Part shown: positions 13,289 to 18,007 of the stretch, piece by piece | Position numbering within the stretch: the stretch's first letter is position 1 | How the letters are laid out: the number at the start of each line of letters is the position of its first letter | The notes under the pieces: model-generated | What the model saw: only the letters and a program-made list of their open reading frames with translations | Told to the model about the DNA's origin: nothing | Database searches by the model: none | Made by a program: the position numbers and the translations under genes | Assembly: GCA_963169635.1 (NCBI GenBank) | Contig: CAUJDL010000046.1 | Location: forward strand, 1-43,728 | Source of the DNA: Bacteroidota bacterium | GTDB lineage: Bacteria; Bacteroidota; Bacteroidia; Chitinophagales; Chitinophagaceae | Reading direction: 5' to 3' | Length of the DNA: 43,728 nucleotides

Positions 13289-14656
13289 ATGGCAACAGTA
13301 ACTAGAGAAAATATTGGTAATCTTACCGATAAACTTACAGTACAAATTTCTAAAGAAGATTATTTTAATGGCTTTGAACAAAGTTTAAAAAAGTATGCTA
13401 AATCTGCTAATATTCCAGGCTTTAGAAAAGGAATGGTACCTGCAGGTTTAGTAAAAAAAATGTATGGTCAAAGTGTTTTTACAGATGAAGTATTAAGAAC
13501 TGTAGAGACACAGCTTAATGAGTATTTAACCAAAGAACAATTGCAAATTTTTGCTCAGCCATTACCATTAGATAATTTGGCTACAGATTTAAATATGAAT
13601 AACCCTTCTGATTATTCTTTTGCTTTTGAAGTAGGTTTAAAACCAACTTTTACTATAAATACTAATATACCTGTTACAAAATATAAGGTTACTATTACCG
13701 AAGAAATGATTAATGACGAAGCAGACAGATTACAAAGACGCTATGGTAAAATGACAGAACCTGAAACTGTAACAGATGATGAAACAATGCTTAATGTAAC
13801 TTTTACAGAAGTAGATAATAATGGCAATGTGGTAGAAAATGGTATTAACAAACCTAATAGTGTATTAGTAAAATATTTTGCACCATCTTTTAGAAAAAAT
13901 TTATTAGGCAAAAAGAAAGATGATGTAATTGATGTACACTTAGCTACTGCTTTTGAAGATAAAGAATTAGAGGTAATTTTAAGCGATTTAGGTTTAGATA
14001 AAAATATAGCTGGTATAGCAGATAAAAATTTTAAATTAACCATTACTAAAGTTGGTTTAGTAGAAAAAGCTGCTTTGAACGAAGAGTTTTTTGCAACGGT
14101 TTATCCTAATAAAGAAATTACAACAGAAGCCGATTTTCGTAATGCTGTAAAAGAAGATATTGAAGCTTATTTTGCAATGCAAAGTAAAAATCAAATTCAC
14201 GACCAAATTTATCATCATTTATTAGACCATACAACTATTGAATTTCCTGAAGCATTTTTAAAACGTTGGATGCAACAATCTGAAAAAGATAAAAAATCTG
14301 AAGAAACTATTGAACAAGAATTTCCTGCATTTAAAAATAGTTTAAAATGGACATTAATTACATCGCAACTTGCAGATGATAATAAAATTGAAGTACTGCC
14401 AGAAGATTTAAGAAATTTTGCTAAGCAACAACTATTTCAATACATGGGCAATCAATTAAACATTTTAGATGAGCAACAACAATGGATAGAAGATTATGCA
14501 GATAAAATGCTAAAAGACAAAAAATTTGTAGAAGATAGCTATCATAGAATTAGTACAGAAAAATTATTTACAATTTTAGAAGATAAAGTAGCAGCAAAAG
14601 AAGAGAGTATTAGTGCTGAAGATTTTGCAAGCAAATTACATCACCATCATCATTAA
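13289..14656 (+). CDS. tig: Trigger factor chaperone
   Basis: This ribosome-associated chaperone meets nascent chains at the exit tunnel. The N-terminal domain carries the ribosome-binding signature NIPGFRKGMVP near residue 45. A diverged FKBP-like middle domain (about 150-255) and the long helical C-terminal arms (about 255-445) follow; the 455-residue length fits the family. The protein ends LHHHHH, a natural run of five His encoded by CAT/CAC codons, which could bind metal ions. The start is the ATG at 13289. It follows tRNA-Leu but is separated from it by terminators, and has its own strong terminator downstream. In many bacteria clpP and clpX follow tig; here they do not. Confidence 0.95.
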   Translation: MATVTRENIGNLTDKLTVQISKEDYFNGFEQSLKKYAKSANIPGFRKGMVPAGLVKKMYGQSVFTDEVLRTVETQLNEYLTKEQLQIFAQPLPLDNLATDLNMNNPSDYSFAFEVGLKPTFTINTNIPVTKYKVTITEEMINDEADRLQRRYGKMTEPETVTDDETMLNVTFTEVDNNGNVVENGINKPNSVLVKYFAPSFRKNLLGKKKDDVIDVHLATAFEDKELEVILSDLGLDKNIAGIADKNFKLTITKVGLVEKAALNEEFFATVYPNKEITTEADFRNAVKEDIEAYFAMQSKNQIHDQIYHHLLDHTTIEFPEAFLKRWMQQSEKDKKSEETIEQEFPAFKNSLKWTLITSQLADDNKIEVLPEDLRNFAKQQLFQYMGNQLNILDEQQQWIEDYADKMLKDKKFVEDSYHRISTEKLFTILEDKVAAKEESISAEDFASKLHHHHH

Positions 14657-14761: not shown

Positions 14762-15889
14762 TTAAATAATAGATTTTAAGGTTTGTACTACAGTATCTAT
14801 TTCTTGTTTGGTATTGAGTTTGCTAAAACTAAAACGTACAGTAACTATTGCAGGGTTGGTATTAATAGTACTTATTACATGGCTGCCTACATCTGCACCA
14901 CTTGAGCATGCACTACCACCACTTGTACAAATATTATGTATATCTAAATTAAAAAGTATCATTTCGCTTTTGGCTGTTTTAGGAAAATTTACACTTAATA
15001 CAGTATATAAACTTTTACCTAAATAATCTCCATTAAAACTAACACCTTCAATTTCTTTTTGTAACTGTTCAATCATATAGTTTTTTAAACCTACTATATA
15101 ATTACTTTCTGTTTCATAATTATTGGTAGCTAATTCTAATGCTTTTGCAAAGCCAATAATACCATATAAGTTTTCTGTTCCTGCTCTCATATTTCTTTCT
15201 TGGCTACCACCATGTACTAAAGGTTTTATTTTTATATTTTCATTTATATATAATAAACCTACACCTTTTGGACCATGAAATTTATGACCTGCACCATTAA
15301 TAAAATGTACATAGGTATTACTTAAGTCAATAGGAAAATGACCAACAGTTTGTACAGTATCGCTATGAAAAATTGCTTGATATTTTTTACATAATTCACC
15401 TACTTGATGAATATCTAATACATTACCAATTTCGTTGTTAGCATGCATTAGAGTAACTAAAGTTTTTTCTTTTGCGGTTGCTAAAAGATTTTCTAAATCT
15501 GCTAAATCAATATGTCCTGTAGGTAATAATTTTACATAGCTTAAAGTTACTACACCAGATTTTTGTAAATACTCTACAGTATGCAAAGTTGCATGATGCT
15601 CAATAGGCGATGTAATAATATGCTTACAACCCAAATCTTTAATAGATGCTGTAATAGCTGTATTACTACTTTCTGTACCTCCACTAGTAAAAAATATTTC
15701 TGAAGGTTTAGCTTTTAAAATTTTAGCTACAGTTTTTCTAGCATTTTCAACTCCTAATCTGCTTTCTCTGCCATAACTATAAATAGAAGAAGGATTACCA
15801 AAATGTGTAGTTAAATAAGGCATCATACTATCTAAAACCTCTTTATCTAAAGAGGTTGTAGCAGCATTATCTAAATAAATTCTATCCAT
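14762..15889 (-). CDS. Cysteine desulfurase (NifS/IscS family)
   Basis: This PLP enzyme takes sulfur from cysteine for Fe-S clusters or tRNA thiolation. The 375-residue protein shows YLDNAATT at the start, FFTSGGTESSN, the HANNEIGN block, HSDTVQTVGH, the PLP lysine in GHKFHGPKGVGLLY, and the catalytic Cys in TSGGSACSSG near residue 325. The loop form is that of class I (NifS/IscS), not SufS. No scaffold or regulator gene (iscU, iscR) lies beside it, so whether it feeds Fe-S clusters or tRNA modification cannot be decided here. It has its own likely promoter (15945-15952). Upstream lies the small-RNA array on the opposite strand. Confidence 0.94.
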   Translation of the reverse strand: MDRIYLDNAATTSLDKEVLDSMMPYLTTHFGNPSSIYSYGRESRLGVENARKTVAKILKAKPSEIFFTSGGTESSNTAITASIKDLGCKHIITSPIEHHATLHTVEYLQKSGVVTLSYVKLLPTGHIDLADLENLLATAKEKTLVTLMHANNEIGNVLDIHQVGELCKKYQAIFHSDTVQTVGHFPIDLSNTYVHFINGAGHKFHGPKGVGLLYINENIKIKPLVHGGSQERNMRAGTENLYGIIGFAKALELATNNYETESNYIVGLKNYMIEQLQKEIEGVSFNGDYLGKSLYTVLSVNFPKTAKSEMILFNLDIHNICTSGGSACSSGADVGSHVISTINTNPAIVTVRFSFSKLNTKQEIDTVVQTLKSII

Positions 15890-15918
15890 GTATCACAATC
15901 AATTTCTTAAAAATATTT

Positions 15919-15934
15919 AGACTAATGATAGTCT
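15919..15934 (-). other. Small hairpin in the leader of the cysteine desulfurase
   Basis: AGACTA and TAGTCT form a 6-bp stem with a 4-nt loop. If transcription begins near 15940 on the minus strand, this hairpin is at the very 5' end of the mRNA, where it could stabilise the transcript. No T-run follows. Confidence 0.35.
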
Positions 15935-15944
15935 GTTTTGGCAG

Positions 15945-15952
15945 CAAAAGTA
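15945..15952 (-). promoter_or_regulatory. -7 promoter element of the cysteine desulfurase
   Basis: The minus strand reads TACTTTTG, a perfect TAnnTTTG and identical to the tRNA-Leu element. The expected start is near 15940, giving a leader of about 50 nt. Confidence 0.5.
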
Positions 15953-16045
15953 ATTGTTATAAGTATTTATTAATTTATTAATTCAATAAATAATTCTTGA
16001 TGGTAGATTAATCAATTCAATTTTTACATTTCTCCACTTATAAAT

Positions 16046-16076
16046 ACTGTCTTTTTTAGGCACTACTTTATCTTTT
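16046..16076 (+). promoter_or_regulatory. Promoter of array unit 1
   Basis: The -33 site is ACTG (16046-16049), then 19 bp, then TATCTTTT (16069-16076). The spacer closely matches that of units 2 and 3. The -33 box is degenerate here, so unit 1 may be weaker or differently controlled. Confidence 0.55.
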
Positions 16077-16080
16077 ATAA

Positions 16081-16258
16081 TAAAAAATGTGTTAATGCAA
16101 AGATTATTTTTATAGTGGTTATTTTAAAATCCAATATCCATTTTAATTGTAAAACCAACGTCCCTGTTAAAATCCAAATTAGAAATCAGCTAAAAATTTC
16201 TATGAAAATCCAAATCCAAACGTTTTTTAAGAGCTCTGTACAATTACAGAGCTTTTTT
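16081..16258 (+). ncRNA. Candidate small RNA, array unit 1
   Basis: This is a predicted transcript of about 178 nt from the promoter at 16046-16076 to a strong terminator. Its 3' half holds a domain closed by AACGT (16157-16161) with ACGTT (16220-16224). Inside is a 7-bp hairpin, TAGAAAT (16180-16186) with ATTTCTA (16196-16202). Three AAAATCCAA motifs (16126, 16169, 16205) fall in regions predicted unpaired. The domain is nearly identical in unit 2, and differences fall mostly in loops. No credible protein frame is present. I do not recognise a named RNA family. The 5' part resembles unit 3. Confidence 0.65.
16232..16258 (+). terminator. Terminator of array unit 1
   Basis: AGCTCTGTA (16232-16240) pairs with TACAGAGCT (16245-16253), loop CAAT, then six T. 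The T-run fixes the plus-strand direction. Confidence 0.85.
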
Positions 16259-16290
16259 ATTTAATAATTAAATATGCTAAATATTAAACC

Positions 16291-16321
16291 TTTGTCCTTT
16301 TTAAGCACTTCTTTATCTTTT
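16291..16321 (+). promoter_or_regulatory. Promoter of array unit 2
   Basis: TTTG (16291-16294), 19 bp, TATCTTTT (16314-16321). This matches the Bacteroidota promoter TTTG-N19-TAnnTTTG except for the last base. It begins about 33 bp after the unit 1 terminator. Confidence 0.65.
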
Positions 16322-16325
16322 ATAT

Positions 16326-16493
16326 TTAATTAAAGTAATTAATGTCTGTTACTTTTATATTGTTCTTATAAAAACCCAATAATCTCTATCAACGTCCCTG
16401 TTAAAATCCAAGTTAGAAATTAGCTAAAAATTTCTATGAAAATCCAAATGCAAACGTTACTCATTAGCTCTGTAATTGTACAGAGCTTTTTTT
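16326..16493 (+). ncRNA. Candidate small RNA, array unit 2
   Basis: This is a predicted transcript of about 168 nt. The domain shared with unit 1 has AACGT (16391-16395) closing on ACGTT (16454-16458), with the inner hairpin TAGAAAT (16414-16420) and ATTTCTA (16430-16436). AAAATCCAA occurs at 16403 and 16439, with a one-base variant (AAAACCCAA) upstream near 16373. The 5' third differs from units 1 and 3. The unit has its own promoter and terminator and no plausible coding frame. Confidence 0.68.
16466..16493 (+). terminator. Terminator of array unit 2
   Basis: AGCTCTGTA (16466-16474) pairs with TACAGAGCT (16479-16487), loop ATTG, then a run of T to 16493. The 22-base hairpin is the exact reverse complement of the unit 1 hairpin. 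Confidence 0.85.
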
Positions 16494-16521
16494 ATGCCTT
16501 TAAAAAATAGCAATTAAAACA

Positions 16522-16552
16522 TTTGTCTTTTTTAAGTACTTCTTTATCTTTT
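16522..16552 (+). promoter_or_regulatory. Promoter of array unit 3
   Basis: TTTG (16522-16525), 19 bp, TATCTTTT (16545-16552). The spacer differs from that of unit 2 at only two positions. Confidence 0.65.
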
Positions 16553-16556
16553 TAAT

Positions 16557-16745
16557 AATTAATAAAGAAAAACTAACTTTTATGTTTGCAATGTGGTTAA
16601 AGTAATCCAATGTCCTTGAAGAAATTTTTATCCTATTTAAAATCCAATCCAAAGAAAAACACCAAACCGTATGAAAATAAATTGGTGTAAGGGTTAAAAA
16701 AGTCAATAAAAGTTCTACTAACAAGTAGAGCTTTTATTGTTTTAT
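16557..16745 (+). ncRNA. Candidate small RNA, array unit 3 (divergent body)
   Basis: This is a predicted transcript of about 189 nt with the same promoter type as unit 2 but a different body. It keeps a 5' block shared with unit 1 (TGCAA, GTGGTTA, AATCCAATGTCC) and one AAAATCCAA (16639). In place of the AACGT/ACGTT domain it has a hairpin ACACCAA (about 16659-16665) with TTGGTGT (16682-16688). It ends in its own terminator. A minus-strand frame of 74 codons overlaps it but has no coding character. Confidence 0.55.
16708..16745 (+). terminator. Terminator of array unit 3
   Basis: AAAAGTTCTACT (16708-16719) pairs with AGTAGAGCTTTT (16724-16735) through one G-T pair, loop AACA, followed by ATTGTTTTAT. 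On the minus strand the A-rich arms also give a T-rich tail, so it could work both ways. Confidence 0.75.
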
Positions 16746-16772
16746 GTACTTGAGAGATAATGTAAACTAGAA

Positions 16773-17429
16773 TTAACCAGGCATTCTAGAAATATATCTT
16801 TCTATTTCTTTTACCTGATCTATTACTTGTTGTGTTTTTGGTTTACAAGCTTTTGCTTTTCTAAAAAAATCTTTAGCAGCTCTAAACTCTCTTTTATTGA
16901 CAAATATTTGGCACATTTGAAGATAGGCTACAGCCTCACTTTCTTTATCAGGAATACCTGCTCTTATTGCAGCTCTTATATAACTTTCGCCTTGTTTTAA
17001 ATCGCCACGTTGCATAGCCATCATACCTAATTGTAATTTATTAGCACCTTCTGCTTCTGGCATTGCACTACCAATATCACTACTCTTTTTTAAATGTTTT
17101 TCAGCAGTTTCAAAATCTTGCTCCATCATTGCTAAATTACCTTTAATAGTATAGTAGGTAGAACGTACAGGCTTATATAATAAATTAGGAAACCATATTG
17201 TATTTAAAATCTTTTTAACTTCTTCTACATTACCAGACTCCATTGGTTCTTGAATTAATCTTAATGGTCCAATAAAAAAATGGCTAAACAAACCAATGGC
17301 TCCTAAAAAATATAAAGGAAATGATGGCCAAAAACCTGCAGTTTTAGTAACATTTAAAACAATTGCACCCACAATGGCTACAATACTTAACCAAAAACGA
17401 TATTTAATCAATAAATTATAAAACTTCAT
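16773..17429 (-). CDS. Membrane-anchored TPR protein
   Basis: The 218-residue protein has two N-terminal membrane helices (about 11-28 and 34-56) followed by tetratricopeptide-like helical repeats (about 65-215), for example KGNLAMMEQDFETAEKHLKKS, LGMMAMQRGDLKQGESYIRAA and QIFVNKREFRAAKDFFRKA. TPR domains bind other proteins, so this is probably a scaffold on the cytoplasmic face of the membrane. No catalytic motif is visible and I know no named family for it. A perfect -7 element lies about 32 bp upstream. It runs towards unit 3 of the RNA array, whose terminator may serve both. Confidence 0.8.
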   Translation of the reverse strand: MKFYNLLIKYRFWLSIVAIVGAIVLNVTKTAGFWPSFPLYFLGAIGLFSHFFIGPLRLIQEPMESGNVEEVKKILNTIWFPNLLYKPVRSTYYTIKGNLAMMEQDFETAEKHLKKSSDIGSAMPEAEGANKLQLGMMAMQRGDLKQGESYIRAAIRAGIPDKESEAVAYLQMCQIFVNKREFRAAKDFFRKAKACKPKTQQVIDQVKEIERYISRMPG

Positions 17430-17581: not shown

Positions 17582-18007
17582 ATGAATAAGTTAATTATTT
17601 TAATGCTTTCATGTTGCTTAATTTTTTCTTGTAAATCAAAAGAAAAAGAAAAAAAATTTGATGAAGATAGTTATGAAACCAGCAAAGAAACTTTAGCTCA
17701 GAAAGAAAAAAATAACCCTGCTCGTTTTTTACAAATTACCAATAGAGATAGAAGAAATATTATTGGACAAACAGTAGTAATTGGACATATCAATAATACT
17801 GCTACATTATGTACTTATAAAGATGTACAAATAAAACTTTCTTTTTTTAGTAAAACAGGTACACAGTTAGATGAAGGAATAGAAACAATTTATGAAACAA
17901 TACCACCCGGTAAAAAAGTAAAATTTAAAACCAAATATTTTTCGCCCAAAGGCACAGATAGTGTAGCAATAAAAGTATTATCTGCTATTGGCGATGTAAA
18001 AGAATAA
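17582..18007 (+). CDS. Small lipoprotein, unknown function
   Basis: The 141-residue protein begins with a lipoprotein signal peptide (MNKLIILMLSCCLIFSCKSK; lipobox Cys about residue 17), then a Lys/Glu-rich linker (18-47) and a beta-rich domain. The domain reads like an immunoglobulin-type fold for protein contacts (NIIGQTVVIGHINNTAT ... CTYKDVQIKLSFFSKTG ... TIPPGKKVKFKTKYF). This is similar in plan to FxLYD-type domains; that is inference. It is likely anchored in the outer membrane or on the periplasmic side. The S10 peptidase gene starts about 110 bp downstream on the same strand. Confidence 0.78.
   Translation: MNKLIILMLSCCLIFSCKSKEKEKKFDEDSYETSKETLAQKEKNNPARFLQITNRDRRNIIGQTVVIGHINNTATLCTYKDVQIKLSFFSKTGTQLDEGIETIYETIPPGKKVKFKTKYFSPKGTDSVAIKVLSAIGDVKE

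Follow-up and report, generated by a model that had tools for sequence, protein, structure and literature searches.

In the 43,728-nucleotide stretch of Chitinophagaceae DNA analysed here (the window), a gap between two protein genes holds three units which, together with their homologues in other genomes, are very likely conserved small-RNA genes, whatever their role. The initial annotation had proposed a small-RNA array at this site, and this proposal gains good support from the conservation and synteny of the units, from covariation in their terminators and from a promoter region kept in the homologues, whereas the promoter it chose is probably not the conserved one, and neither the shared fold nor a mosaic origin was upheld. 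To our knowledge, few regulatory RNAs have been described in Bacteroidetes outside Bacteroides, and no papers on small RNAs of Chitinophagaceae were found in the open literature (subscription papers and preprints lay outside the scope of the search). Direct baits for finding a candidate RNA-binding regulator are available in the AAUCCAA site, which is invariant, in the predicted ends of the transcripts and in a long relative of these RNAs; the host group is a large environmental family of a phylum without Shine-Dalgarno sequences.

The three-unit array and its homologues

The gap (15890-16772) lies between a cysteine desulfurase gene and a TPR gene and, as the initial annotation had stated, contains no convincing protein frame. 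Three plus-strand units were confirmed as direct repeats spaced 245 and 231 bp, and the three terminators described earlier were recovered by a terminator scan, which returned exactly 3 compared with 0.0 ± 0.2 in shuffled sequences. The locus is laid out as follows, with predicted ends for the small RNAs:

14762-15889, minus strand: cysteine desulfurase (Aminotran_5), flank of the gap
16117-16258, plus strand: unit 1 small RNA, with AATCCAA four times (16128, 16171, 16207, 16213)
16229-16258, plus strand: unit 1 Rho-independent terminator (scan; compensatory changes in homologues)
16362-16492, plus strand: unit 2 small RNA, with AATCCAA twice (16405, 16441)
16466-16492, plus strand: unit 2 Rho-independent terminator (scan; compensatory changes in homologues)
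16593-16742, plus strand: unit 3 small RNA, with AATCCAA three times (16604, 16641, 16646)
16704-16742, plus strand: unit 3 Rho-independent terminator (scan; compensatory changes in homologues)
16773-17429, minus strand: TPR gene, other flank of the gap

Elsewhere in the window, the trigger factor gene (13289-14656, plus strand) has a frame whose last codons form a natural stretch of five consecutive histidines.

Within the genus, a DNA search located one unit of genome G001 directly upstream of the same desulfurase gene, and a second G001 unit adjoins the same TPR gene. Single units were found beside the desulfurase gene in G008 and between trmD and the TPR gene in G003, while G007 carries two tandem units beside the TPR gene. 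One G001 copy resembles units 1 and 2 (88% identical to each other over 103 nt); the second, like the G008 copy, resembles unit 3. At least two copies are therefore probably older than the species. The units had been described as a mosaic of duplicated RNA genes; this origin is unnecessary, since all three can be aligned end to end and the lineages of units 1/2 and unit 3 each have their own relative in G001.

Beyond the genus, homologues were reached through a covariance model of six units covering body and terminator only (R1), a model of a longer RNA presented below (R2), DNA search or motif search. Single copies with AATCCAA repeats and a terminator were found in five other genera (G012, G108, G022, G230 and G318). 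The RNA lies directly downstream of trmD in G012, G108 and G230, as in G003, and in G318 it lies near an apparent homologue, judged by eye, of the lipoprotein-like gene at 17582-18007 of the window. Most of the distant R1 matches, in other genera, were judged by eye to be the terminators of ordinary genes (one, for example, follows an HU-like gene) and were set aside. A different conserved non-coding element, GGGGCC..AAAATCCAGCCCCGTTTTTAAAATCCAATATCC, was seen in two genera (loci L007, at G000:C64 near 14394, L027, L028 and L195), where it is accompanied by a terminator and then the same AATCCAATATCC motif.

It is highly improbable that the units are drifting repeats or decaying copies with no present function. 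Such decay would fit the presence of a clear copy in only 5 of the 10 genus genomes and the variation in copy number from 1 to 3, but against it stand compensatory changes in the terminators, the fixed spacing of the promoter region and neighbours that persist across several genera, and the array's own genome gave no additional full copy elsewhere. We attach just as little weight to the idea that the units are cis elements of neighbouring genes, be they terminators, 3' regions or small-peptide genes. The convergent TPR gene does have its stop 31 bp beyond the end of unit 3, whose terminator could act for the two of them; however, the desulfurase and TPR genes are both on the opposite strand, homologues preserve no common reading frame (the lengths of their indels are not divisible by three), and every unit is preceded by a conserved promoter region of its own.

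Promoter region and transcript body

The initial annotation had placed the promoters at TTTG-N19-TATCTTTT, and units 2 and 3 do carry this pattern exactly, accounting for its 2 occurrences in the window (0.03 expected). The TATCTTTT box is nevertheless probably not the conserved promoter, because the homologues keep only one C of it. We aligned 14 units on a TAnnTTT-like box, picked by eye as the anchor, which is conserved and sits 36 bp downstream of the TATCTTTT box. Nearly all 14 units, from several genera, also carry TGTC(C/T)-N6-GG or a variant of it 56-57 bp upstream of the TAnnTTT box; the sequence between the two drifts and the distance stays fixed. For the 11 units that come from other genomes, column information averaged 0.90 bits in the TAnnTTT box, 0.68 bits in the upstream element and 0.25 bits in the spacer; the TATCTTTT box reached 0.54 bits, mostly through the one conserved C and not through TATCTTTT itself. 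The promoter features of the array, all on the plus strand, are:

16046-16076, plus strand: initially annotated promoter of unit 1 (ACTG variant), present; TATCTTTT box not conserved in homologues
16048-16066, plus strand: unit 1 upstream element TGTCTTTTTTAGGCACTAC, a candidate regulator site whose TGTC precedes the TAnnTTT box by exactly 57 bp
16105-16112, plus strand: unit 1 -7-like box TATTTTTA, predicted promoter; TAnnTTT in nearly all homologous units
16291-16321, plus strand: initially annotated promoter of unit 2 (TTTG-N19-TATCTTTT), present; TATCTTTT box not conserved in homologues
16293-16311, plus strand: unit 2 upstream element TGTCCTTTTTAAGCACTTC, from spacing and conservation in homologues
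16350-16357, plus strand: unit 2 -7-like box TACTTTTA, conserved in homologues
16522-16552, plus strand: initially annotated promoter of unit 3 (TTTG-N19-TATCTTTT), as for unit 2
16524-16542, plus strand: unit 3 upstream element TGTCTTTTTTAAGTACTTC, from spacing and conservation in homologues
16581-16588, plus strand: unit 3 -7-like box TATGTTTG, conserved in homologues

The TGTC(C)-N6-GG element looks like a regulator site, and its GG is lost in the array's own genome. Since these upstream boxes lie outside model R1, they provide independent support for the homology of the units. The Bacteroidetes -7 element is TAnnTTTG, and the enrichment of TATCTT and TCTTTG upstream of genes in a 432-kb sample of the array's own genome (a fifth of it, used for all genome statistics here) fits this element. 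With the conserved promoter placed at the TAnnTTT box further downstream, the transcripts would be about 130-150 nt long (approximately 16117-16258, 16362-16492 and 16593-16742). In G003, the gap between the desulfurase gene and pdxH (L041) contains TTTGTATTTTAAAGCACATTACTATCTTT (TTTG...AAGCAC...TATCTTT-like), which resembles the initially annotated promoter, just before pdxH; given this similar stretch, the boxes first annotated could be a second promoter.

A folded domain common to units 1 and 2 had also been described, but an alignment of 14 sequences gave the terminator as the sole consensus structure, with compensatory changes in 9 of its 11 pairs among the 14 homologues. Single-sequence minimum free energies gave z-scores of about -3 for folds that included the terminator and began at the initially annotated promoter, upstream of the revised transcript starts. 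A closing helix seen in unit 1 was considered as a conserved feature of the array units and rejected, as it was not clearly above shuffles in most units. The unit bodies are largely unpaired and A-rich, and AATCCAA is the only invariant transcript block in the alignment of homologous units. This motif is enriched over shuffles in units 1-3, with 2-4 copies per unit of the window; the second G007 unit has only one, which we counted against a role of the RNAs in titration.

A long AUCCAA-rich RNA and a candidate binding protein

Model R1 also matched a second type of RNA, in which many AATCCAA, GATCC and AAACCA repeats are accompanied by a terminator and by a hairpin that opens with the near-invariant AAATTTGTACCTATTGA. 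In the two loci first examined, this RNA lies beside a short-chain dehydrogenase gene, and ATCCAA is the commonest hexamer in the dehydrogenase-adjacent long RNAs (93 occurrences in 23 RNAs). In most long RNAs, a helix from near the predicted transcript start closes the repeat loop, and the sequences of its two strands both vary widely from member to member. Most genus genomes carry the form with a similar start and promoter, and the array's own genome has two:

G000:C4:17368-17768: long RNA (L213), similar start and promoter
G000:C67:2607-2957: long RNA (L220), similar start and promoter

Relatives of the long RNA (L106-L131, L211-L220 and L229-L248) are well conserved in Chitinophagaceae, and Rfam 15 gave no match to it. 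The long-RNA promoter pattern matched 20 records in the genome collection, from Pseudoflavitalea, Flavitalea, Puia, Pseudobacter, Chitinophagales or Bacteroidetes MAGs and one genome labelled Sphingobacteriales; the RNA follows in 19, and the twentieth record ends at the locus edge. Upstream of this promoter, L106-L131 contain palindromic sites similar to CGTA-N4-TACG, and their -33 region has an AGC-N6-GCT repeat; these features suggest that the long RNA is under transcriptional control.

The array units and the long RNAs are likely linked. When model R2, built from long RNAs of other genera only, was applied to 39 relatives, its best distant matches included unit 1 of the window and the units of G001 and G008, and R1 conversely found some long RNAs; this cross-detection of the two groups is weak, their pairwise similarity is weak and only suggestive, and R1 and R2 share the terminator signal. 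Across the 432-kb genome sample, which included the array and long-RNA stretches since these were already known, the motif formed dense non-coding windows nowhere but in the array and in both long RNAs.

A single short motif that recurs in unpaired, A-rich RNA and is common to RNAs of different size suggests protein binding. The array may consist of regulated multicopy RNAs that titrate, or work with, a single-strand RNA-binding protein; this is the most likely reading, to which we give somewhat less than an even chance. Each unit would be transcribed separately from its own promoter, starting a few bases after the TAnnTTT box, with a putative transcription factor acting at the upstream element. 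The AAUCCAA sites would then be bound by the putative single-strand RNA-binding protein, which the array RNAs would thereby titrate or work with, and the long AUCCAA-rich RNA would act on that protein as a larger sponge, like CsrB on CsrA. Instead of forming a titrating sponge, the RNAs might function within a ribonucleoprotein in some other way, such as a protein's scaffold or cofactor. The unpaired repeated motif, the conserved locus and the long structured relative with its closing helix agree with this, but in the short units the terminator is the only fold that is conserved, and we regard this reading as improbable.

With regard to targets of a titrated protein, AATCCAA occurred in 0 of the 336 gene leaders sampled and was not enriched there, so that these leaders give no sign of competing mRNA sites of the CsrA type. 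In the relatives L170, L172, L177 and L030, AATCCAATATCCA or a close variant lies a few bases before a start codon, where the same protein might bind the mRNA. The leaders also bear on a different mechanism, in which the units are multicopy antisense small RNAs of the LhrC or FopS kind, whose AAUCCAA pairs with UUGGAUU in mRNAs and blocks translation, the copies setting dose or speed. Tandem copies with redundant C-containing sites occur in LhrC (PMC4132741), and an unpaired stretch with a terminator occurs in FopS (PMC11697453). However, TTGGAT was seen 0 times upstream of genes compared with 2.0 expected (336 gene starts, a fifth of the genome), and 10-nt complements at these starts were no commoner than for shuffled RNAs, although a few targets would escape such a sample. 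Bacteroidetes mRNAs, moreover, are without Shine-Dalgarno sequences (PMC6847099). Antisense pairing is the main rival to protein titration, although we consider it rather unlikely.

Comparison with known RNA families and systems

The earlier statement that no named RNA family fits was borne out: Rfam 15 gave zero matches at the gathering threshold, and relaxed matches were noise, with sau-6072 and similar hits matching the terminator only. The suggested check against 6S RNA (RF00013) gave no match at gathering or at E <= 5; the array units are like 6S RNA in length class only and do not have its long hairpin with a central bubble.

LhrC1-5 of Listeria monocytogenes are multicopy small RNAs, each with a terminator and a redundant C-containing single-stranded motif (UCCC); they are induced through a two-component system, and their UCCC sites block the Shine-Dalgarno sequences of targets (PMC4132741). 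The array is similar in that it comprises several paralogous copies, every one of which has a terminator, and in its redundant C-containing motif, but it differs in having AAUCCAA instead of UCCC, no target signal and no sequence match (none to LhrC at gathering or E <= 5). FopS/GibS of Bacteroides thetaiotaomicron are paralogous small RNAs that combine an unpaired stretch with a Rho-independent terminator and contact the RRM protein RbpB (PMC11697453). The array shares with FopS the phylum, a paralogous small-RNA family and the unpaired stretch with a Rho-independent terminator, whereas the FopS genes are scattered, number 14 copies and have a different seed, compared with three tandem units here. 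The FopS model (RF04319) scored 23.5 bits on the minus, and thus wrong, strand against a gathering threshold of 56, which is no match. Two genus genomes encode an RRM protein, which we counted in favour of titration; the sample of the array's own genome showed no RRM gene, which we counted against it. As neither LhrC nor FopS gave a sequence match, we did not file the array as a member of either.

CsrB/RsmZ sponge RNAs carry many copies of GGA in loops, and CsrB titrates CsrA. The array resembles them in that a single short motif recurs many times in unpaired RNA and in the presence of short and long RNAs in one genome; unlike theirs, its motif is AUCCAA and not GGA in loops. We tentatively propose, with less assurance than for titration itself, that Chitinophagaceae may possess a CsrB-like system in which one AUCCAA-reading protein would be controlled both by short array-type RNAs and by a long RNA with a closing helix.
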